A stretch of 64,000 bases of DNA from Pararhizobium qamdonense (GTDB taxonomy: Bacteria > Pseudomonadota > Alphaproteobacteria > Rhizobiales > Rhizobiaceae), in NCBI RefSeq assembly GCF_029277445.1, contig NZ_CP119566.1, positions 2,916,001 to 2,980,000 on the forward strand. Reading direction: 5' to 3'. A program made the position numbers and the translations under genes. Under the pieces are notes generated by a model. The model saw nothing but the letters and a program-made list of their open reading frames with translations, ran no database searches and had not been told where the DNA came from. The stretch's first letter is position 1. Each line of letters starts with the position of its first letter. This document shows positions 10,863-57,324 of the stretch, piece by piece.

Positions 10863-12317
10863 TCAGTTCCTCACTTCATCAGTCTGTTTGTGCTGCACGT
10901 CTGAGGCCGAACCGTTCGTCTTGCCCGTGACCAGCGGCTGCGACCGTTCGAAATTCGCGCCGGCCACCGCATCGCCGATGATCACCATGACCGGGCCATC
11001 CAGCTCGTCGCGATATTGCAGGTCCGGCAGATCCTTCAGCGTGCCGTGCAGGAGCTTGCGCCCGGCGCGGCTGGCGTTTTCGATCACGGCGACCGTGGTT
11101 TCCGCCGGCAAACCGGCTTCGATCAGCCGCGCCGCAACGGAAGCTGCAACCGTGCGGCCCATATAGACGGCAATGGTCGCACCGGAAATGGCAAGACGGG
11201 CCCAGTCCGGCAGGACGTCACCGGTCAGATCATGGCCGGTGGTAAAGATCAGCGACGAGGCGACACCGCGCAGCGTCAGCGGCAATTCGAAATCGGCAGC
11301 GGCCGCAAAAGCCGAGGTAATGCCGGGAACGATCTCGTAGGTGATCCCGGCTTCGCGCAAAGCCGCCATCTCTTCGCCAGCGCGGCCATAGACCAGAGGA
11401 TCGCCTGACTTCAGCCGCACGACACGCTGGCCGTCCTGACCGAGGCGCACCAGCAGCTGATTGATCTCATCCTGCGATTTCGAATGGCAGCCCTTGCGCT
11501 TGCCAACCGGCAGGCGCTCGGCGTCGCGGCGGCCCATATCGACGATCGCCTGCGGCACCAGCGCATCGTAAACGATCACATCGGCTTCCATCATTACGCG
11601 CTGGGCCCGCAAGGTCAAAAGGTCCTCCGCTCCCGGACCCGCACCCACCAGCCAGACATGGCCCGGAACCCGATCGACCGACTGCAGCAGCCGGGATGCT
11701 TCCCGGCGCGCTTCGGCGATATTTCCTAGCGACACCTGATCTGCGACCGGGCCGGAAAAGAACCGGCGCCAGAACACCCGGCGGGAAACGCCGCGCGGCA
11801 GAACACGGTCGGCGGCATCGCGATAGGCCTGCGCCAGCGAAGCGAGCGCGCCAAGGGATGGGGAAAGCAGCTGATCGATCTGCGCGCGGATCATCTGGGC
11901 GAGCACCGGCCCTGCGCCCTCGGTGCCGATGGCAACGGCGACGGGCGCGCGATTGACCAATGCCGGCGTCAGGAAATCGCAGAATTCCGGCTGATCCACC
12001 GCATTGGCCGGAATTTTCTGCGCCCGCGCCGCAGCGACGATCAGGCGGTCTTGAGCCGCATCGCCGGTTGCGGCAAAGACCAGCGTTGCGCCGTCGACCT
12101 GGCCTGCCTCGAAAGGCGTTGCGACATGGTCGATCGCATTGGTGTACAGGAACGCGGCGAAATCGTCTTCCGGCTCGTCCGCATAGGCGATGATCCGGGC
12201 CTGCGTGTTGAGCAACAGCCGAACCTTGGCAAATGCCTCGTCACCATTGCCAAAAACCGCCACGCATTTCTGCGCAACGCGGAAGAAGGCCGGAAAGACG
12301 GTCAGTTGTTCGGTCAT
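10863..12317 (-). CDS. cysG: Sirohaem synthase (uroporphyrinogen-III methyltransferase/dehydrogenase/ferrochelatase)
   Basis: 484-residue bifunctional CysG. Residues 1 to ~205 form the precorrin-2 dehydrogenase/sirohydrochlorin ferrochelatase part (FRVAQKCVAVFGNGDEAFAK, a variant dinucleotide-binding loop; PANAVDQPEFCDF). Residues ~215-460 form the SAM-dependent uroporphyrinogen III methyltransferase (VWLVGAGPGAEDLLTLRA, VRLKSGDPLVYGRAGEE, VPGITSAFAAAA). It makes the sirohaem used by CysI, encoded just downstream. It is the first gene of the minus-strand operon cysG-DUF2849-cysI-DUF934. Confidence 0.94.
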   Translation of the reverse strand: MTEQLTVFPAFFRVAQKCVAVFGNGDEAFAKVRLLLNTQARIIAYADEPEDDFAAFLYTNAIDHVATPFEAGQVDGATLVFAATGDAAQDRLIVAAARAQKIPANAVDQPEFCDFLTPALVNRAPVAVAIGTEGAGPVLAQMIRAQIDQLLSPSLGALASLAQAYRDAADRVLPRGVSRRVFWRRFFSGPVADQVSLGNIAEARREASRLLQSVDRVPGHVWLVGAGPGAEDLLTLRAQRVMMEADVIVYDALVPQAIVDMGRRDAERLPVGKRKGCHSKSQDEINQLLVRLGQDGQRVVRLKSGDPLVYGRAGEEMAALREAGITYEIVPGITSAFAAAADFELPLTLRGVASSLIFTTGHDLTGDVLPDWARLAISGATIAVYMGRTVAASVAARLIEAGLPAETTVAVIENASRAGRKLLHGTLKDLPDLQYRDELDGPVMVIIGDAVAGANFERSQPLVTGKTNGSASDVQHKQTDEVRN

Positions 12318-12559
12318 CGTGTGGGAATCTGATCCTGTTACAGGTTATGGGGAATATCCCCTTTATACCTTGAAAATTGAAGAAACAGAAATTCCGATGC
12401 CTTTGCAGGCGGATATTCTTTTGCTCGACTCCAGCATAATTTGAGCAAATCTCTCCGAGGACAAGGCCTTCGGCAACGGCAGGATCGTGTTTCCGAGCAT
12501 TGCCTATACCACTTCAAATCCGCTAAATGCCAGTAATCCTATTGTATGGAGCCAATGGT
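12318..12559. promoter_or_regulatory. Divergent control region between cysG and the deaminase gene
   Basis: 242 bp between divergent genes. Two copies of an 8-bp inverted element, GAATATCC (12352-12359) and GGATATTC (12411-12418), are 51 bp apart. The 9-bp form GGATATTCC also occurs upstream of fpr (8260-8268), the other sulfur-linked transcription unit. Regulatory function is a guess from position; no clear -35/-10 pair was identified. Confidence 0.35.
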
Positions 12560-13150
12560 TTGACGAACAATTCCAAACTTGCAGAACGCCTGCTGAGCGT
12601 CATCGAGACAGACGTCCTGCCCCTCACGGAAAAGGGTGTCGCTGCCGGCAACAAGGTTTTCGGTGCGGCGATCCTGCGCAAATCGGACCTGTCCCTCGTC
12701 ATCGCGGAAACCAACAACGAGACGGAAAACCCGCTCTGGCATGGCGAAGTGCATACGCTGAAGCGCTTTTACGAGCGCGCCGAAAAGCCTGACACCAAGG
12801 ACCTCATCTTCCTCTCCACCCACGAACCCTGCTCGATGTGCCTCTCGGCGATCACCTGGGCGGGCTTTGACAATTTCTACTACCTGTTCAGCCACGAGGA
12901 TTCGCGCGACGCGTTTTCGATCCCGCACGACCTGAAAATCCTGAAAGAGGTTTTCCGGCTCGATCCCGGCGGCTACGCCAAGACCAACGCCTTCTGGCGC
13001 TCCTCCTCGATCGCCGATCTCGTGGCGACATCGGACGAGGCCGGCAAGGCCGCGCTACGGGAGCAGGACCGGCGCATTCGCGCCAAGTACCAGTCGCTGT
13101 CGGATTCTTATCAGTCCGGCAAGGACGCCAACGCCATTCCATTGAATTGA
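12560..13150 (+). CDS. Nucleoside/cytidine deaminase-like zinc hydrolase
   Basis: 196-residue protein of the CMP/dCMP-guanine deaminase superfamily. The zinc motif HGEVHTLKRF (His ligand and catalytic Glu) and PCSMCLSAITW (two Cys ligands) are both present. The C-terminal half (FRLDPGGYAKTNAFWRSSSI) is longer than in tRNA deaminase TadA, so a free base or nucleoside substrate is more likely. I chose the TTG at 12560, with GGAG about 9 nt upstream; the ATG at 12527 has no site. It lies 5 bp before mazG and both deal with nucleotides. The substrate is unknown. Confidence 0.8.
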   Translation: MTNNSKLAERLLSVIETDVLPLTEKGVAAGNKVFGAAILRKSDLSLVIAETNNETENPLWHGEVHTLKRFYERAEKPDTKDLIFLSTHEPCSMCLSAITWAGFDNFYYLFSHEDSRDAFSIPHDLKILKEVFRLDPGGYAKTNAFWRSSSIADLVATSDEAGKAALREQDRRIRAKYQSLSDSYQSGKDANAIPLN

Positions 13151-49261: not shown

Positions 49262-50032
49262 TCAGGCCGTCAGTTCTTCATACGCCCGGTAGATGGCGAG
49301 GAAGTCGTCGGCTTTCAAGCTTGCGCCGCCAATCAGGGCGCCATCGACATTGGCAACACCCATCAATTCCTTCGCATTGCCCGGCTTGACCGAACCGCCA
49401 TAGAGAATGCGCATCTTCGCGCCGGCCGGGCCGAAGCGTGCGACGAGCTCTGAGCGCTGGAAAGCGTGGGCTTCCTCGACATCGGCAGCGGTCGGCGTCA
49501 GGCCTGTGCCGATCGCCCAGACGGGTTCATAGGCGATGACAGTATTTTCAGCGGTTGCGGTCTCCGGGATGGAGCCTGCAAGCTGGCGCTTGAGCACATC
49601 CAGCGTCTGGCCGGCCTTGCGCTCGTCGCCGGTCTCGCCGATACAGATGATGGCAATGAGCTCGGCGGCATAGGCAGCCTCAGCCTTCGCGCGGACCACG
49701 GCGTCGGTTTCCTTGTGATCGGTGCGGCGCTCGGAATGACCGACGATCACGTGGGTGCCGAAGCAATCGGCGATCATTTCGGCGGAGACATCGCCGGTAT
49801 GGGCGCCGGAGACCTTTTCATGGCAATCCTGTGCGCCGATCAGAAGCGGGCTGTCGTCGCAGAGTGCGGTTGCCACATAAAGCAAGGTTGCGGGCGGGCA
49901 TATGAGGGTTTCGACCTTATCGGACAAGTCTCCCTTGACGCCTTCCGCCATCGCCTTGATCTGATCGAGCGACGCGCGCAGACCATTCATCTTCCAGTTT
50001 CCGGCAACCAGCGGTTTCACGTCGGGCGTCAT
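49262..50032 (-). CDS. tpiA: Triose-phosphate isomerase
   Basis: 256-residue TIM barrel. N-terminal VAGNWKMNG with catalytic Lys, VIVGHSERR with the electrophilic His, [11 protein letters not shown] with the catalytic Glu, and [11 protein letters not shown] phosphate loop. Interconverts DHAP and glyceraldehyde 3-phosphate. Start 50032 has AGGAGACGAT upstream; the frame extension to 50140 is not conserved. Separated from secG by 258 bp in which nothing was recognised. Confidence 0.96.
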
Positions 50033-50205
50033 ATCGTCTCCTTCAAGGCTAAGTCCTTTTCCCGGCAAAGGCCCTAGCAAATAAGCCGGGCAAAGAAAAG
50101 CACGGTGACGAAGAGGACGCGCGGATTGCCCGCTTGTCATGCGGGGTTCTTCGGGAGGCAGCTTCCCCGCTCAGATCGGTACGGACCTCGTGGAATCAAC
50201 AAGGA

Positions 50206-50226
50206 CACGGCGCATGCGGCGCCGTG
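50206..50226. terminator. Hairpin downstream of the aminotransferase operon
   Basis: CACGGCGC (50206-50213) and GCGCCGTG (50219-50226) with a 5-nt loop. It lies 36 bp after the aminotransferase stop (minus strand); the T-run (CTCTTTTC) is on the plus-strand side, so minus-strand termination is not certain. Confidence 0.5.
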
Positions 50227-50261
50227 CCCTCTTTTCATTCTGCCGGATTTTCCAGTGGCAA

Positions 50262-51734
50262 TCAGCCGATCTGGCTGCCGACGAAATCCTTGACGATGCG
50301 GATGATGCCGCGGCCCAAAAGGTCATCGAGCGCATCGCAGAGATGATCGACATGCTGGCGCTCGCAGATCAGCGGTGGCAGCAGGCGGATGACGTTGCGG
50401 TTATATTCGGTGAAGGCCACCAGCGTATCGTAGTCACGCAGCAGAAGCGCACCGATGAAACCTGACAACGATCCCTTCAGCTTGTCATCCAGCACCGCAA
50501 CCACCGGCCGCAGAACCATCGGGAGCGTCTGGCTGAAATCCTGGAATTCGAGACCGACCATCAGGCCCTGCCCGCGCACATCCTTGATGATCTTCGGATA
50601 CTTGTCCTTCAGCGCGGTCAGGCGCTCAAGCAGGTACTCGCCCTGCACAGCGGCATTCTCGATCAGATCCTCGTCGTAAAGTACATTCAAGGTCTCGATA
50701 GCCGTGATGCAGGCCTCGCCGATACCGCCGAACGTGGCATGGGCGTGGATCATCGCCGTCTTCGGCGTCCCATAGGCTTTCATATAGATTTCGCGGCGGG
50801 CGATCATGGCAGCCATGGCCGTCTTGCCGCCTCCGAGCGACTTGGCGACCGCCGTGATATCAGGCACGACGTTGGCATATTCGAAGGCGAAGAAGCGGCC
50901 CGAGCGGCCGACGCCGCACTGCACCTCATCGGCCACCCAGATGACGCCATGCTTGTTGCAGAGCGCGCGAACCTCCTGCCAGAACTCCGGCGGTGCGATG
51001 TTGATGCCGCCACCACCCTGAATGGTTTCCAGCACCAGAACGCCGATCGTCGGATCGCTCTCGAAAGCGTGGCGGATCGCGTCGATCTCCCCGAACGGAA
51101 TCTTGACGTTGTTGTCGAGCAACTTGAAATCGCCGCGATACAGCGGACCGTCGGTGATCGACAGCACGCCGCGCGTCTTGCCGTGGAAGGAGTTCTCGGC
51201 ATAAACGACACGCGGCCGCTTCGGGCCGGCGACGCGTTCGGCCAGCTTGATGGCAGCTTCCATGGCCTCCGAGCCGGAGGAGCCGAGGAACACCATGTCA
51301 AGGTCGCCAGGGGCAATCGCAGCGAGGTTCTTGGCGAGAGCCGCCGCATATTGCGACATGAAGGCGATGGCGATCTCGTGGCGGTTTTCGTCCTGGAACT
51401 GCTTTCGCGCGGATATCAGGCGCTGATGGTTATGGCCGAGCGCCAGCGAACCGAAACCGCCGAAAAAGTCGAGAATCTTCCGGCCATTCTGATCGACATA
51501 ATACATGCCCTCGGCCGTTTCGATCTTGATCTTGTTGAAACCAAGCAGTTTCATGAAATGCAGCTGACCCGGGTTCAGGTGATCCTTGAACAGAGCAGTC
51601 ATATCGGCGACGCTCATATCCTTGGCCTGTGCAACTGTCAGCAGGTCGGGCTTGTTGATACCGCCGGAAAGAGCGGGTGCGTCGATGGCGACACGTTGCG
51701 TTTTGTCGAGCATTGTCGTGATCCCCTGGTTCAT
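50262..51734 (-). CDS. Class III PLP-dependent aminotransferase
   Basis: 490 residues. Fold-type I class III signatures: GFGSLALGHNH, VFLGSSGSEAMEAAIKLAER, FHGKTRGVLSIT, VLETIQGGGGINIAPPEF, WVADEVQCGVGRSGRFFAFE and PLP Lys in AVAKSLGGGKTAMAAM. The family includes acetylornithine, GABA and sugar or hopanoid-side-chain aminotransferases; the substrate cannot be named. It overlaps the SDR gene by 4 bp and is last in the polyprenyl-sugar-like operon, so a keto- or aldehyde-sugar lipid substrate is an attractive guess. An internal ATG at 51713 is an alternative start. Confidence 0.88.
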   Translation of the reverse strand: MNQGITTMLDKTQRVAIDAPALSGGINKPDLLTVAQAKDMSVADMTALFKDHLNPGQLHFMKLLGFNKIKIETAEGMYYVDQNGRKILDFFGGFGSLALGHNHQRLISARKQFQDENRHEIAIAFMSQYAAALAKNLAAIAPGDLDMVFLGSSGSEAMEAAIKLAERVAGPKRPRVVYAENSFHGKTRGVLSITDGPLYRGDFKLLDNNVKIPFGEIDAIRHAFESDPTIGVLVLETIQGGGGINIAPPEFWQEVRALCNKHGVIWVADEVQCGVGRSGRFFAFEYANVVPDITAVAKSLGGGKTAMAAMIARREIYMKAYGTPKTAMIHAHATFGGIGEACITAIETLNVLYDEDLIENAAVQGEYLLERLTALKDKYPKIIKDVRGQGLMVGLEFQDFSQTLPMVLRPVVAVLDDKLKGSLSGFIGALLLRDYDTLVAFTEYNRNVIRLLPPLICERQHVDHLCDALDDLLGRGIIRIVKDFVGSQIG

Positions 51735-52741
51735 TCGGCCGGTACGGCGGATGTGTGTGCGAAAGCCTTGCCGGCCTTCTTGGCGCGATATTCGTCGTAG
51801 GCCGCGATCAGCATGTCGCCGTCATTGTACTCGGCCTTCCAGCCCAGCTCCTTCTTGAGCTTGCCGGTTTCGCGGATGCACATTTCGTCGGCGATCAGAT
51901 ACTGTTCCGGGTCCATGATCGGCAGGTTGACGAAATCGAAGGCGGCGAGCGTCGCCTTGACCGCAAAGGCGGGCGTCGGCAGCAGGAACGATTTCGATCC
52001 GGCATGGACGATCAGGTCGCCCAGCAGCTTCTTCACCGACGGCGGATTGTCGGAGCCGAGATTGTAAGCCTCGTTCGGCACGCCGCCCTTCCAGGCAAGA
52101 CGCGCAGCCTCGGCGCAATCGAAAACCGAGATGAACTGGTAGGGGTTCTTGCCCGAGCCGATCATCGGCACCGGCAGATTGGCGTCGATCAGCTTGAACA
52201 GTTTTTCCAGAATACCGAGACGGCCGGGGCCGATAATGAGGCGCGGGCGGAAAATCGAGATATTCATGCCCTGCTTGCGCCATTCGGCGGCGAGCTGCTC
52301 GGTTGCCCATTTCGACTTGCCGTATTCGCCCAGCGGTTTTGCCGGATGCGCCTCGGTCTGCGGCGACATGATCGTGTGGCCGTAGATCATGTCGGTGGTG
52401 AACTGCACCATCCGGTTGGCGCCGGACTTTGCCGTCGCCTTCATGATGTTTTCAGCGCCGTAATAATTGACCGGCCAGAAGAACTGCCAGCGCTTGGAGC
52501 GCACCTGCAACGGCGACAGCATCTTGGCCGCCATGTTGTAAACCATGTCGTCCGGGCCGATCTCGACCTTCATCACGTCGTCCGCATTGGTCACGTCGCA
52601 ATGGACGAAACGGGCACGGGCGTAATGCGGCAGGTCGGACTTGGCGATATCGGCGACGAGGACCTCTTCACCGTCCTGGACCAGACGTTCTGCGAGATGG
52701 CGGCCGACGAAGCCGTCACCGCCGAAAATGATATGTTTCAT
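51731..52741 (-). CDS. Extended SDR (NAD-dependent sugar epimerase/dehydratase family)
   Basis: 336 residues. Rossmann motif IIFGGDGFVGRHLAERL, NMAAK, YGKSKWATEQ (YxxxK), FRPRLIIGPGRLGILEKLF and NPYQFISVFDCAEAARLA. It resembles sugar-nucleotide or lipid-linked-sugar epimerases. ATGA overlaps join it to the transporter gene upstream and the aminotransferase downstream. In the mycobacterial analogue a short SDR (DprE2) reduces the 2'-keto sugar; this extended SDR could play that part or another, which the sequence does not decide. Confidence 0.85.
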   Translation of the reverse strand: MKHIIFGGDGFVGRHLAERLVQDGEEVLVADIAKSDLPHYARARFVHCDVTNADDVMKVEIGPDDMVYNMAAKMLSPLQVRSKRWQFFWPVNYYGAENIMKATAKSGANRMVQFTTDMIYGHTIMSPQTEAHPAKPLGEYGKSKWATEQLAAEWRKQGMNISIFRPRLIIGPGRLGILEKLFKLIDANLPVPMIGSGKNPYQFISVFDCAEAARLAWKGGVPNEAYNLGSDNPPSVKKLLGDLIVHAGSKSFLLPTPAFAVKATLAAFDFVNLPIMDPEQYLIADEMCIRETGKLKKELGWKAEYNDGDMLIAAYDEYRAKKAGKAFAHTSAVPAE

Positions 52742-53193
52742 GATGCGCTCCCGATTTTTGCTGTTTTGGCGCCCGCAGCTTCAAGCGATGACTGGTCTTC
52801 ATGCGAAGACATACCTGCCCCTGACAGGCCGGATTGGGCAATGAGAATGGTTCCGACGCAGATGAAGCCGATGCCGGCGATGCGCCAGGCGTTCAGATCC
52901 TCGTGGAAGACGAAATAGGCAAAGACGGCCACCGCCACATAGGCAAGGCTGAGAAATGGATAGGCGAAGGAAAGTTCCACCTTCGACAGGACGTAAAGAT
53001 GCGACACCATCGAAATGACGAATGTGGCAAGTCCGGCGAAGACCCAGGGGTTGAACACCACCTGGAAAATACGGGCAATGAAAGTATCAGCCGTGAAGCT
53101 CAACGGTCCCAGCGACAGCATGCCCTGTTTCAGCAGGACTTGTGCGGCAGCGTTGGTCAGTACGGTGAAGAGAATGAATACGATATACTTCAT
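52738..53193 (-). CDS. Small DMT/EamA-type membrane transporter
   Basis: 151 residues with four hydrophobic segments (IVFILFTVLTNAAAQVLL; VFAGLATFVISMVSHLYVLS; FAYPFLSLAYVAVAVFAYFV; WRIAGIGFICVGTILIA) and a polar tail. The VELSFAYPFLSL and GIGFICVGTILI motifs match the four-helix SMR/EamA group that includes ArnE/ArnF, undecaprenyl-phosphate-aminoarabinose flippases. In this operon a flippase for a polyprenyl-phosphate sugar is a sensible guess; drug efflux is the alternative. Confidence 0.8.
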   Translation of the reverse strand: MKYIVFILFTVLTNAAAQVLLKQGMLSLGPLSFTADTFIARIFQVVFNPWVFAGLATFVISMVSHLYVLSKVELSFAYPFLSLAYVAVAVFAYFVFHEDLNAWRIAGIGFICVGTILIAQSGLSGAGMSSHEDQSSLEAAGAKTAKIGSAS

Positions 53194-53308
53194 GTCGATG
53201 TCCCCTGTTCCCGTCCGGATACTTACAGCTAAGAGCCGTATATTCCGTGAAATTCGGGCGTTTATTTAATTCAAATTGTTCCTATTCCCATTTCGGCAAA
53301 GCCTGTTT

Positions 53309-54631
53309 TCAACCCGGCAAGGAAAGAGCCGTGCGCTTCCAGAAGTTGGAAACCATGGCCGGATCGCGCAATTCTTCCAGTTCGCGCCAGCGCGGGAACG
53401 AGAAATCAAAGGTTTGCGGGCTCATCCGCGCATCCTTGTAGGGATTGATGGCGCCGCCGGCCTCTACAACCATGGCATCAAGGCGGTTGAGAAGCTTAAG
53501 GGTCTCTTCACCCTGATTGGCGAAATCCAAAGTCAGCGTAAAACCGGGCCTCGGGAAGGATAAAAGTCCGCCCGATGTCTCACCGCCGAACTTCTTCAAG
53601 ACGGTCAAAAAAGAAGCGTGACCCGCCTTGCGGGCGGTCTCCAGCAGGCGTGGCGTCAGATACGGGGCGTCCGCCGACGGATAGACGCTCTGGTGCTGGT
53701 AAAGACCCTTCGGTCCATAGAGCCGGTTCCAGTTGCCGATCGCATCCAGCGGATGGAAGTAGCCGGGCCATTTGACGGTCTTGACCGTTTCGCCGCGTTT
53801 TTCCTTGCGGAAATAGAGCTCGTTGAACGCCTTTAGCGTCACCGTGTTCAGAAGATTGAACGGCGGCGCGATCGGCACCGACAATCGCCGTGCACGCGGC
53901 ATGTCCGGAAATTCGCAGGATGCATCGGCGTGATCGCCGGCCAGAAGCACGCCCCTGCCCGCCCGCTCGCCGGCCGCCAGCTGATCGATCCAGGCCACGG
54001 AATATTCATGTTCGGCATCGACGGTTTCGACCATGCCGAAATAGTCGGCGAGGGTGTCGAAGCGGATGGCGTGCTGCTGGATATGGGCGGATGGCACCTT
54101 CATCAGCTGCAGATCGACCGACAGGATCAGCCCCGTCAGACCCATGCCGGCGATGGTGGCATAAAACAGCTCGCGGTTTTCCGCCGGCGAGCATGCGAGC
54201 ATTTCCCCGTTCGATCGCAGCAATGTCAGGCCGCGCACATGCCGGCCGAACGTGCCGCGTGCGTGGTGATTCTTGCCGTGGACGTCGTTGGCGACGGCAC
54301 CGGCAACGGTGACCGACGCGGTTCCCGGCGTGACCGGCAGGAAGAACCGGTGCGGGATCGCCGTCTCAAGGATGGAATGGAGGGTAACGCCGGCGTCGCA
54401 GGAGATGATTCCGGTTCCCGGGTCAAATCCAAGGATGCGGGTGCGCACCCGGCTCTCGATCAGTTTGCCCTGGTCGTTATGGCAGCTATCGCCATAGGAC
54501 CGGCCGTTGCCGAACGGCAGGAATGCGCCGGGGGCCGCACTTTCCCTGAGGTTCTCATAGGCATCGGGCGATACGGACTGCCGGGCGCGGCGATCGATCC
54601 GGCCCCAGCTGTCAAATCCTGTCGATGTCAT
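53309..54631 (-). CDS. DprE1-like FAD-dependent sugar oxidase
   Basis: 440 residues of the VAO/PCMH flavoprotein family, close to decaprenylphosphoryl-ribose 2'-oxidase DprE1. Matching segments: PFGNGRSYGDS (FAD), PVTPGTASVTVAGAVANDVH, HGKNHHARGTFGRHV (~118-132), TIAGMGLTGLIL, SFPRPGFTLTLDF and NPYKDARMS with the equivalent of catalytic Lys418 (~399). The position of the DprE1 Cys387, the benzothiazinone target, is Thr (~367). Overlaps the HAD-UbiA gene by 4 bp. It would oxidise C2' of a polyprenyl-phosphate pentose. Confidence 0.85.
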   Translation of the reverse strand: MTSTGFDSWGRIDRRARQSVSPDAYENLRESAAPGAFLPFGNGRSYGDSCHNDQGKLIESRVRTRILGFDPGTGIISCDAGVTLHSILETAIPHRFFLPVTPGTASVTVAGAVANDVHGKNHHARGTFGRHVRGLTLLRSNGEMLACSPAENRELFYATIAGMGLTGLILSVDLQLMKVPSAHIQQHAIRFDTLADYFGMVETVDAEHEYSVAWIDQLAAGERAGRGVLLAGDHADASCEFPDMPRARRLSVPIAPPFNLLNTVTLKAFNELYFRKEKRGETVKTVKWPGYFHPLDAIGNWNRLYGPKGLYQHQSVYPSADAPYLTPRLLETARKAGHASFLTVLKKFGGETSGGLLSFPRPGFTLTLDFANQGEETLKLLNRLDAMVVEAGGAINPYKDARMSPQTFDFSFPRWRELEELRDPAMVSNFWKRTALSLPG

Positions 54632-56070
54632 GGCGTTCCCATTGCACCGGCGAGCACGAAGCCGGCGCCGATGGTCATGGTCACGAGGCTGCGCCAGTCG
54701 CGCATGATGAACACCACCGGATCCTCATGCAGCATGCCGCGGCGGGCCAGCATCCAGATGCGCAGGAGCATGTAGAGGACGAGCGGGCAAAGCGGCCAGA
54801 GCGCCCAGTCCAGCGTGTACATCTCCTGCATTTCCTTGCTGTGAATATAGAGCGCCAGAACCAGCGCCGAGGCGAAAGCCGAGGAGACGCCGGCCTGCCC
54901 GACCATTTCGAAATCGACGGCCAGATAGCCGCGTCCAGGCACCTGGTTTCCATCACGCCCGTCATATTCGTCGAGCTCGACATAGCGCTTGACCAGCGCC
55001 AGGCTGAGGAAAAAGAAGATGGAAAACGACAGAAGCCAGAAAGACAGCTCGGTGCCGGTGGCAGCCGAGCCCGCGATAATGCGGACCGTGTATAGCCCGG
55101 CCAGCGTGAAGACATCGACCAGCAGCTTGCGCTTGAGCACGAATGTATAGGCCGTCGTCGCCAGGGCGTAAAACCCGAGCACAAGAGCGAAATCATAGGG
55201 CAGCACAGCCGTCAGCGACAGCGAGGCAAACAGAAGGCAGAGCGCAATCACCATGCCCATCGGCACCGACATCTGGCCGCTGGCCAACGGCCGGTTGCGC
55301 TTCTTGGGATGGCGCCGGTCATTGGTGAGATCGGAGAGATCGTTGACCACGTAGACGGCGGAGGCCAGGAAACTGAAGGCGAAGAAGGCCAGGATGACAT
55401 TGACCACCGCATCCATCTGCAGGATGTCGTGGTTGAGGACCATCGGCACGCCGATCAAAACGTTCTTGGCCCATTGATGCACGCGGATCGATTTGAGCGC
55501 GGCAAAACGGGATGTCTTGCCAAGATCGAGCCGTTCGGCATCATGGGCCCGGCGCCACTTTTCAGCGGCTGCATCCGGCGCAACCACAATCGCCTTGCGC
55601 GCGGCATCAAAGACCGGAACGTCATCGCGGCTGTTGCCCATATAGTCGAAACCGCCCTCGCCGAACTTTTCGATCAGCGTCTCGCGCTTGCGGCGGCTGG
55701 TAAGGTTGATATCCGTTGTGCTGTGGAGGACCGAGGAAAACGCGCCGGTATGGGCGGCAATCCCAAGTGCCACGCTTTCGGCGGCCCCGGTGACGAGGAT
55801 GATCTGGCGGCCGGTTTCGCGCTCGCGCGTCAGGCGCTTCAGCACGGCCTCGCGGTAAGGCCAATCGGCAGCCTTGCGTCCGGAGCGCGCCGCGACCTCG
55901 TATTTCAGGCGCGCCTTGCCCTTCGACATCCAGAAAAGAACGGCAAACAACATCAACGGATTGCGCAGGAGAATGATGGCCACGCCCTCCCAGAGCGTGT
56001 CTGCAGCAAGCAACGTTCCATCAAGATCGACGCACAGCGGAATATGCTGCGTTTCAGTTCGAGCATCCAT
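54628..56070 (-). CDS. HAD phosphatase-UbiA prenyltransferase fusion (polyprenyl-phosphate phosphoribosyltransferase-like)
   Basis: 480 residues. Residues ~10-200 are a HAD domain (CVDLDGTLLAADTLWEG nucleophile loop, IILVTGA, YMGNSRDDVPVFDAA). Residues ~205-480 are a UbiA-type polytopic domain with the Asp-rich motif YVVNDLSDLTNDRRHPKK and NRPLASGQ. The UbiA half resembles decaprenyl-phosphate phosphoribosyltransferase (Rv3806c); the HAD half would remove the 5-phosphate, a step done by a separate protein in mycobacteria. It starts the operon and overlaps the DprE1-like gene by 4 bp. Confidence 0.85.
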   Translation of the reverse strand: MDARTETQHIPLCVDLDGTLLAADTLWEGVAIILLRNPLMLFAVLFWMSKGKARLKYEVAARSGRKAADWPYREAVLKRLTRERETGRQIILVTGAAESVALGIAAHTGAFSSVLHSTTDINLTSRRKRETLIEKFGEGGFDYMGNSRDDVPVFDAARKAIVVAPDAAAEKWRRAHDAERLDLGKTSRFAALKSIRVHQWAKNVLIGVPMVLNHDILQMDAVVNVILAFFAFSFLASAVYVVNDLSDLTNDRRHPKKRNRPLASGQMSVPMGMVIALCLLFASLSLTAVLPYDFALVLGFYALATTAYTFVLKRKLLVDVFTLAGLYTVRIIAGSAATGTELSFWLLSFSIFFFLSLALVKRYVELDEYDGRDGNQVPGRGYLAVDFEMVGQAGVSSAFASALVLALYIHSKEMQEMYTLDWALWPLCPLVLYMLLRIWMLARRGMLHEDPVVFIMRDWRSLVTMTIGAGFVLAGAMGTP

Positions 56071-56197
56071 AAGATCAAACCCCGAGAATATATGCCCGGA
56101 ACAGTCCCACGATCAGCTTTCCAAATAGCAAACAGCGCTTGAGGCAGCGTTTCAAATTGCTGCGTTGGTTAATGAATCCCGGATATATTTCCCATCC

Positions 56198-57082
56198 TCA
56201 ATCCAGCCCGATCCAGTTTAGCGCATCGCGCCAGTCCGTCATGCGCACCGGCGTTCCATGCGAGCCGGTTTGAAACAGAACCATGCGGCTCGGATATTTC
56301 GCCGCTTTCAACGACCGGTAAAGCGCGATCTGATCGGCTGACGGATAGACGCTGTCGGCACTGCCATGGCTGAAGAAGACCGGCAGTTTTCTCTTGTAAG
56401 CCGCACTCTTCATAAAGGCGGGATCCGCCGGACCGCCCATGATCATCATGCCTTTCAGGGATGCAACCGCCTGCCTGTCGCGCGTGATGCCCCAGCAGAT
56501 GAAGCTGCCCATCGAGGCGCAGGCAAGGACCACCGGGCGGCCCGGCGATTGCTGGCGCGCATAGGCAATCAGCCCGGCAATATCGGCCACGCCGGCATCG
56601 TCGAAAGAGCGGACGCTCGGGGCGTAATAGACACCGCCATTATCGACGGCGAGGTTCTTCAGGCGGTTGAAATTGCCACCGAACGACCAGTCATTGGCAC
56701 CGAGCCGCCGGTCTCCGCCCCGGCCGTGGATGAAGATGACGGTGAATGCGGCGCCGCTGGCAGAACCGGCGCGCGTGACATCGAGCGGCCTTGATCCGAC
56801 GGCCAGCGTCTCGTTCGCCTGTGCGCTCTTGACACTAAGCGAGACGTAGGCGCGCTTTGCCCGCCGTTCCGGATCCTGGTCGCGGCCATTGATATCGCGC
56901 ATTTCCTGATAATCGACGACGCGGTAATCGCCACCATCGGCTGTTTCAAGCACGGTGCCATAGGAAAACAGCGCGTCCTTATAGGGTTTCAGCGGTGCTG
57001 CCCTAGCCGGGACCGCAAGCGCGATGGCGGCTATGCAGGTGAAAAAGACGCGATGGATCAAATGAGCTGTGGACAGGTGCAT
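56198..57082 (-). CDS. Secreted alpha/beta hydrolase
   Basis: 294 residues. Signal peptide (HRVFFTCIAAIALAVPARAAP with an AxA site). Alpha/beta-hydrolase features: FIHGRGGDRRLG (oxyanion), nucleophile Ser in LACASMGSFICWG, acid in HGSADSVYPS and His in TGSHGTPVRMTDW. Likely a periplasmic esterase or peptidase-like enzyme; substrate unknown. Start 57082 has GAGGA upstream. It lies 127 bp upstream of the HAD-UbiA gene on the same strand but is probably a separate unit; the 242 bp to parE holds divergent promoters that I could not resolve. Confidence 0.82.
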   Translation of the reverse strand: MHLSTAHLIHRVFFTCIAAIALAVPARAAPLKPYKDALFSYGTVLETADGGDYRVVDYQEMRDINGRDQDPERRAKRAYVSLSVKSAQANETLAVGSRPLDVTRAGSASGAAFTVIFIHGRGGDRRLGANDWSFGGNFNRLKNLAVDNGGVYYAPSVRSFDDAGVADIAGLIAYARQQSPGRPVVLACASMGSFICWGITRDRQAVASLKGMMIMGGPADPAFMKSAAYKRKLPVFFSHGSADSVYPSADQIALYRSLKAAKYPSRMVLFQTGSHGTPVRMTDWRDALNWIGLD

Positions 57083-57324
57083 CCGGAATGTTCCTCTTTT
57101 GATCCAAGCCTTGCCATCGGAGCTTCCGCAAAGCAACAGTTGCGGCTATTGAAGGCGTGATCGGCGATGGAGCGCTTGCGGCCCGCGCCACAGGGCTGGC
57201 AAGGTCGCTTTCGCGCCAGGAATTTGGCAGAATTCCGGCGATTCGTGCAGACATTCATGACGGCTCAGTCCGCAGCCCTTCCCAGGCCTGAAGCCGCCAC
57301 CACGGAAAGACATCAAAACAGACT

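Follow-up and report, generated by a model that had tools for sequence, protein, structure and literature searches.

We analyzed a 64,000-nucleotide stretch of the Pararhizobium qamdonense genome (contig NZ_CP119566.1, positions 2,916,001 to 2,980,000; the window), which contains a putative operon for a polyprenyl-phospho-pentose. The open reading frame (ORF) listing shows five intact minus-strand genes at 50262-56070, the place claimed in an earlier note on this DNA, and the intergenic gaps of -4, +115, -4 and -4 in transcription order agree with the ATGA overlaps and the 115-bp gap described there. The features are:

54628-56070, minus strand: HAD phosphatase-UbiA fusion, 480 aa, predicted polyprenyl-phosphate phosphoribosyltransferase and 5'-phosphatase
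53309-54631, minus strand: DprE1-like FAD oxidase, 440 aa, predicted C2 oxidation of polyprenyl-phospho-ribose to the 2'-ketone
53194-53308, minus strand: 115-bp gap 5' of the transporter gene, computed from ORF coordinates
52738-53193, minus strand: EamA/SMR-type small membrane protein, 151 aa, candidate flippase of the lipid-linked sugar
51731-52741, minus strand: extended short-chain dehydrogenase/reductase (SDR) of the GalE type, 336 aa, predicted accessory stereochemical tailoring enzyme
50262-51734, minus strand: class III pyridoxal phosphate (PLP) aminotransferase (AT), 490 aa, predicted amination of the 2'-ketone of the DprE1-like oxidase

The mycobacterial decaprenyl-phospho-arabinose (DPA) pathway comprises Rv3806c, a phosphatase, DprE1, DprE2 and Rv3789, with DprE1 leaving a 2'-ketone that is reduced by DprE2. 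Homology of the first two gene products, the phosphoribosyltransferase-phosphatase fusion and the DprE1-like oxidase, supports the earlier note's assignment of the locus to a polyprenyl-phosphate pentose pathway; their matches stay within the families of decaprenylphosphoryl-5-phosphoribose (DPPR) synthase and DprE1, as this assignment implies. The fusion scores 81.7 bits against UbiA (PF01040), 578 bits against NF006088 (cut-off 351), 149.6 bits against the DPPR synthase model NF008977 (under the cut-off of 234) and 22.6 bits against HAD (PF12710, under the cut-off of 27). Its residues 191-377 align with 8j8j, the solved structure of DPPR synthase from M. tuberculosis (E 7e-27), with which it shares the motif NDxxDxxxDxxHP (NDLSDLTND from residue 243 in the window copy), the letters N, D, D and D of NDxxDxxxD being constant in all survey loci whose alignment reaches them; by this alignment and motif, the UbiA-type phosphoribosyltransferase of the DPA pathway is present. 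The HAD motif DLDGTL starts at residue 15 of the fusion, its first Asp being retained in every survey locus where aligned and its second Asp being substituted in five survey loci, including the AT loci L016 (H) and L019 (N). The DprE1-like oxidase is, judged by its sequence, a clear DprE1 homologue scoring under the equivalog level: it matches FAD_binding_4 with 59 bits and the DprE1 model NF053785 with 344.3 bits (cut-off 500), aligns with solved mycobacterial DprE1 chains at E about 3e-69 and retains GRSYGD, HGKNHH and the Lys of KD(A/S)R. Its PGFTLTLDF corresponds to mycobacterial PGWNVCVDF and has Thr in place of the Cys that we take to be the residue attacked by benzothiazinones.

Comparison of DprE1 loci from other genomes (tblastn, n=60) shows AT and DprE2 to be mutually exclusive: DprE2 without AT occurs in 49 loci and AT without DprE2 in 10, L011 (genome G043) has neither, and no locus has both. 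These are 60 of 65 non-window DprE1 hits, the five weakest (G270, G288, G339, G386 and G480; E 1e-27 to 2e-37, 24-28% identity) being left out; gene presence was called by bit thresholds that we set, and the DprE2 call of L040 rests on a 56-bit match. For five DprE2 members whose label was checked, the top model is the general SDR model PRK07102, and NF053786 is second-best in 5/5 (166-197 bits, under the cut-off of 250). A genome-wide search with one DprE2 query (E <= 1e-25) gave no match in 11/11 AT genomes, i.e. the window genome and 10 others, and gave a match in 6/6 control genomes without AT, the source genome of the query among them. In G043, DprE1, EamA and SDR are present with no AT match, and elsewhere in the genome lies a DprE2 sharing 60% identity with a DprE2 of a DprE2-type locus.

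The exchange of AT and DprE2 can be followed on a DprE1 tree of 76 rows, composed of the survey loci, 11 of 80 named loci, one DprE1 of Hoeflea (L156) and five loci of the plasmid collection, with AT labels set by hand and L069 and L070 left out as long branches. It requires three label changes (bootstrap 5-95% range 3-3), or four counting G043: the main AT clade, L020 (AT) as neighbour of L031 (DprE2; support 100/96), and L042 (AT), nested in a 12-row clade otherwise of the DprE2 type (support 100/100). The UbiA match of L042 does not include the HAD part, so that the AT set apparently came together with a different DprE1 lineage there.

Among 199 genomes sampled evenly across the order, 30 have DprE1-like genes, 10 have AT (E <= 1e-140) and 9 have SDR (E <= 1e-90), with 10/10 AT genomes falling within the 30 DprE1 genomes; in 289 genomes of the class, DprE1 was found in 37 and AT in two (the window genome and G401), both with DprE1. 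The AT type is thus scattered, not universal. Scanning of named genomes yielded 443 stretches with AT relatives (E <= 1e-3), of which the best 80, a set biased toward near relatives, were examined. The five genes are in the same order in 70 of these 80 and in the plasmid locus L072, so the arrangement is more than chance and the co-occurrence anticipated in the earlier note is borne out. Of the remaining ten, eight, each titled Hoeflea, show just EamA-SDR-AT, L115 has no SDR, and a contig end truncates L076. For five of nine named loci with no DprE1 in the locus a genome-wide search was made (L076, L108, L112 and L114 were left out, L076 and L108 being cut by contig ends); DprE1 lies elsewhere in the genome in 5/5 Hoeflea tested as well as in the genome of L115 (59-61% identity). 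The closest named genome among the matches listed belongs to Rhizobium sp. Root483D2, with AT at 100% over its best segment; Pararhizobium is among the near relatives.

AT belongs to the class III enzymes (Aminotran_3, PF00202, 287 bits, cut-off 30.5). K298, presumably the PLP lysine, and D269 are invariant in 11/11 sequences; R450 in the (I/V)RLxPP segment is also invariant, which suggests glutamate as amino donor. AT shares with PigE a stretch between the large domain and LVAFTEYN that is longer than in putrescine aminotransferase; the PigE substrate is lipophilic, and by analogy the longer stretch would fit a lipid substrate. The start codon of AT may lie seven codons downstream of the ORF start, since some homologues begin ML- there.

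The transporter passes the Pfam cut-off for EamA (33.7 bits), and its gene is found in 9/10 AT loci, 0/49 DprE2 loci and the AT-less L011. The SDR (Epimerase, PF01370, 119.5 bits) belongs to the extended, GalE-type SDRs, whereas DprE2 is a classical SDR; fold comparison places it as GalE-like only and does not name its reaction. A closer kinship with the type-B extended SDR was rejected, the alignment covering 198 residues at 23% (E 9e-4). None of the five operon genes encodes a GT-C-like transferase; a family member, whose model has ArnT as nearest match, is present in the window genome at G000:C1:2765942-2767597, and such a gene lies beside AT in some relatives. A 591-aa ArnT-like-family protein of the window genome (L174 8847-10622, C1), adjoining a glmU-like gene and with no match in Pfam or NCBIfam, is a candidate transferase for the operon product.

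We regard the operon as a conserved form of the polyprenyl-phospho-pentose pathway that ends with an aminotransferase. Since the search for DprE2 gave no match, the operon cannot be classed as the arabinose (DPA) pathway. A substitute for DprE2 that is itself a PLP aminotransferase most simply aminates the 2'-ketone; the mutual exclusion of AT and DprE2 now speaks for transamination of the 2'-keto sugar instead of its reduction, an alternative raised in the earlier note. We therefore consider it likely that the operon makes a lipid-linked amino-pentose. This supports a model according to which the DprE1-like oxidase would, by homology, convert C2 to a ketone, which AT, with PLP and probably glutamate, would aminate where DprE2 would reduce it, as suggested by their mutual exclusion. 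The extended SDR might adjust the stereochemistry in lineages having it, the EamA protein would flip the lipid to the periplasm, and an ArnT/AftA-like GT-C enzyme, encoded away from the operon here, would transfer the sugar to an envelope glycan. While product, SDR step, flippase and acceptor are what we infer, the product most likely is polyprenyl-phospho-2-amino-2-deoxy-pentofuranose. The operon of some rhizobia and relatives probably combines a DPA-like start with an AT replacing the final reductase, resulting in an undescribed lipid-carried amino-pentose of the envelope. We lean, by a small degree, toward the broader view that rhizobia and other Hyphomicrobiales carrying the operon attach 2-amino-2-deoxy-pentofuranose, aminated on the lipid by a class III enzyme, to an envelope glycan. 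This would be a convergent counterpart of Arn built from DPA parts with AT and DprE2 as interchangeable endings of a shared keto intermediate.

By analogy, the operon would work like the DPA pathway up to the keto intermediate, its later half resembling Arn. It shares with the mycobacterial pathway the UbiA phosphoribosyltransferase with NDxxDxxxD and the DprE1 oxidase homologue; unlike in mycobacteria, no DprE2 was found and AT is in its place, the phosphatase is a fused HAD domain and the transporter is an EamA protein nearest ArnF. The likeness to Arn would consist in an amino-pentose on undecaprenyl phosphate, a transporter nearest ArnF/ArnE and a GT-C model nearest ArnT. In Arn, the amine is placed on a UDP-sugar at C4 by a DegT-type enzyme, whereas here a class III enzyme would introduce it at C2 of the lipid-linked sugar. 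The compact phosphoribosyltransferase-phosphatase fusion pointed out in the earlier note is real, although as an architecture it is not new: in the portions of PMC11127046 available to us, Citrobacter youngae ORF15 has the same HAD-UbiA domain order with activity shown with farnesyl phosphate and phosphoribosyl pyrophosphate. According to the same portions, ORF12-15 of C. youngae O1/O2 resemble our operon in the fusion making polyprenyl-phospho-ribose, and O2 in having a GalE-type SDR, there an auxiliary epimerase; they include a GT-C transferase, for which the window genome has a candidate outside the operon; unlike in the window operon, they describe neither DprE1 nor an aminotransferase (a word search of the main text did not find 'aminotransferase'), and the flippase is a MATE protein instead of an EamA protein nearest ArnF/ArnE. 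Measured against the three-component system (Kelly 2024), the operon has the fused HAD phosphatase with Asp nucleophile, recognized by DLDGTL at a HAD score under the cut-off, and no MATE-family flippase. In the Azorhizobium noeCHOP locus, involved in Nod-factor arabinosylation, noeC, noeH and noeO were likened to mycobacterial arabinosylation proteins; compared by description only, and as far as the accessible part of PMC2443382 goes, no aminotransferase is named there, unlike in the window operon.

Three other explanations were weighed. The extended SDR could be a working reductase replacing DprE2, the product being polyprenyl-phospho-arabinofuranose or another neutral pentofuranose and AT acting elsewhere. 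The position of the SDR gene, which has EamA and AT as neighbours in the 70 loci with all five genes (best 80 of 443), the retained motifs of the window copy and a GalE-type SDR setting xylose instead of ribose in C. youngae O2 (PMC11127046, as far as available) are in line with this. A genome-wide search (E <= 1e-15) found no SDR in the AT genomes G161, G183 and G488, of which G161 and G183 also have no DprE2 match (E <= 1e-25), whereas G043 has the SDR yet also DprE2, so that the SDR is not the general substitute of DprE2 and this explanation appears unlikely. A reading of the SDR as DprE2 was rejected in view of the different SDR class and the three AT genomes in which no SDR was found. We regard it as a little less probable still that AT is a linked, independent metabolic transaminase (putrescine, ornithine or hopanoid HpnO-like) next to an operon making a neutral pentose. 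Its closest named families are indeed PigE and the putrescine/acetylornithine-type transaminases, and HpnO, a class III enzyme, acts on a ribose-derived aldehyde; but the AT subfamily (E <= 1e-140) is confined to DprE1 genomes in both samples, co-occurs with DprE1 even where the two are unlinked, excludes DprE2 and has as nearest paralogue by score in the window genome a protein of only 35% identity. Amination at C3, for which the SDR would oxidise C3 and with DprE1 set up another keto-pentose for AT, is very improbable despite GalE-type SDRs oxidising a ring hydroxyl and Citrobacter ORF13 inverting C3 (PMC11127046, in the part available), since genomes with the HAD-UbiA fusion, DprE1 and AT and no detectable SDR exist and the core set thus needs only the C2 ketone.

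Several observations weigh against an amino-pentose product. Fisher's test takes no account of relatedness and the independent-pairs test does; in the latter, four independent pairs agree in 4/4 cases (phylogenetic sign test, p 0.125), which is not statistically significant because there are only four independent swaps. A class III enzyme acting on a ring ketone is unusual, since the majority of aminotransferases for sugar ketones are DegT-family members, and no glycan with 2-amino-pentofuranose was met in our literature search of titles and abstract starts. DprE1 and HAD scores lie under the curated cut-offs, and the fused phosphatase may be non-working in L016 and L019 because the second HAD Asp is lost. 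The transporter scores 56.6 against ArnF (cut-off 99) and 40 against ArnE (cut-off 92); judged by these scores, its likeness to them is a resemblance only and not family membership. The amination scheme leaves the role of the SDR unexplained, and EamA and SDR are not strictly tied to amination, since G043 has both alongside DprE2. In the window genome, the GT-C gene lies ~199 kb from the operon, and a search for the GT-C-like family gave no match in 7/13 AT genomes.

If the amino-pentose reading is true, a lipid-linked amino-pentofuranose would be a new donor sugar and the amination of a lipid-linked sugar a new reaction, no description of either being met in the literature search, which covered mostly titles and abstract starts. 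DprE1 would be a branch point at which the choice between arabinose and amino-pentose depends on the partner enzyme, and a number of soil and symbiotic rhizobia would carry a positively charged surface sugar that could affect host contact and cationic-peptide tolerance. Among the papers listed, the same search met no aminotransferase acting with DprE1 and no 2-amino-pentofuranose lipid, which is not proof of absence; in the parts seen, DprE1 occurs in a Brucella flavoproteome paper (PMC9045290) in the reference list only and in a review on undecaprenyl phosphate (PMC12826051) once, in a reference.

The operon is flanked by alpha/beta hydrolase and parE-like genes on one side and by tpiA, secG-like and pyrG-like genes on the other, named after the annotation of a Sinorhizobium relative. 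The alpha/beta hydrolase gene (window 56198-57136), annotated as phospholipase in S. meliloti, retains its position beside parE, adjoining the operon, and the Hoeflea loci L098 and L128 have, judged by eye, a similar-looking gene there. A scan of the minus strand (49900-56400) for sigma-70-like promoters found no site, the 115-bp gap included; terminator-like sites numbered 11 versus a mean of 6.4 in shuffles, a result not used. At the same parE-phospholipase...tpiA spot, Sinorhizobium meliloti Ak57 (L071 9001-10326) has a lone DprE1-like gene, 64% identical, with a branch of 0.39 compared to 0.11 in its Ensifer sister; its record was not among the matches listed when the plasmid collection was searched for AT (E limit 1e-100).

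The smallest set, the HAD-UbiA fusion, DprE1 and AT, was seen at L020. Beside it lie a membrane protein matching LPG_synthase_TM (PF03706; 9189-10196) and a second one (12072-13133), the start of which resembles LPG_synthase_TM by eye. A third architecture comprises the HAD-UbiA fusion, DprE1, DprE2, an extended SDR, an amine-oxidase-like flavoprotein and GtrA, the latter not being detected in L021. It was observed at L073 (6517-12699), L074 (6586-12825), L075 (6517-12707), L021, L023-L026 and L032, with an Agrobacterium conjugative plasmid, Burkholderia stagnalis and Rhizobium tumorigenes among the hosts, and its two extra enzymes, the extended SDR and the amine-oxidase-like flavoprotein, suggest further changes of the sugar.

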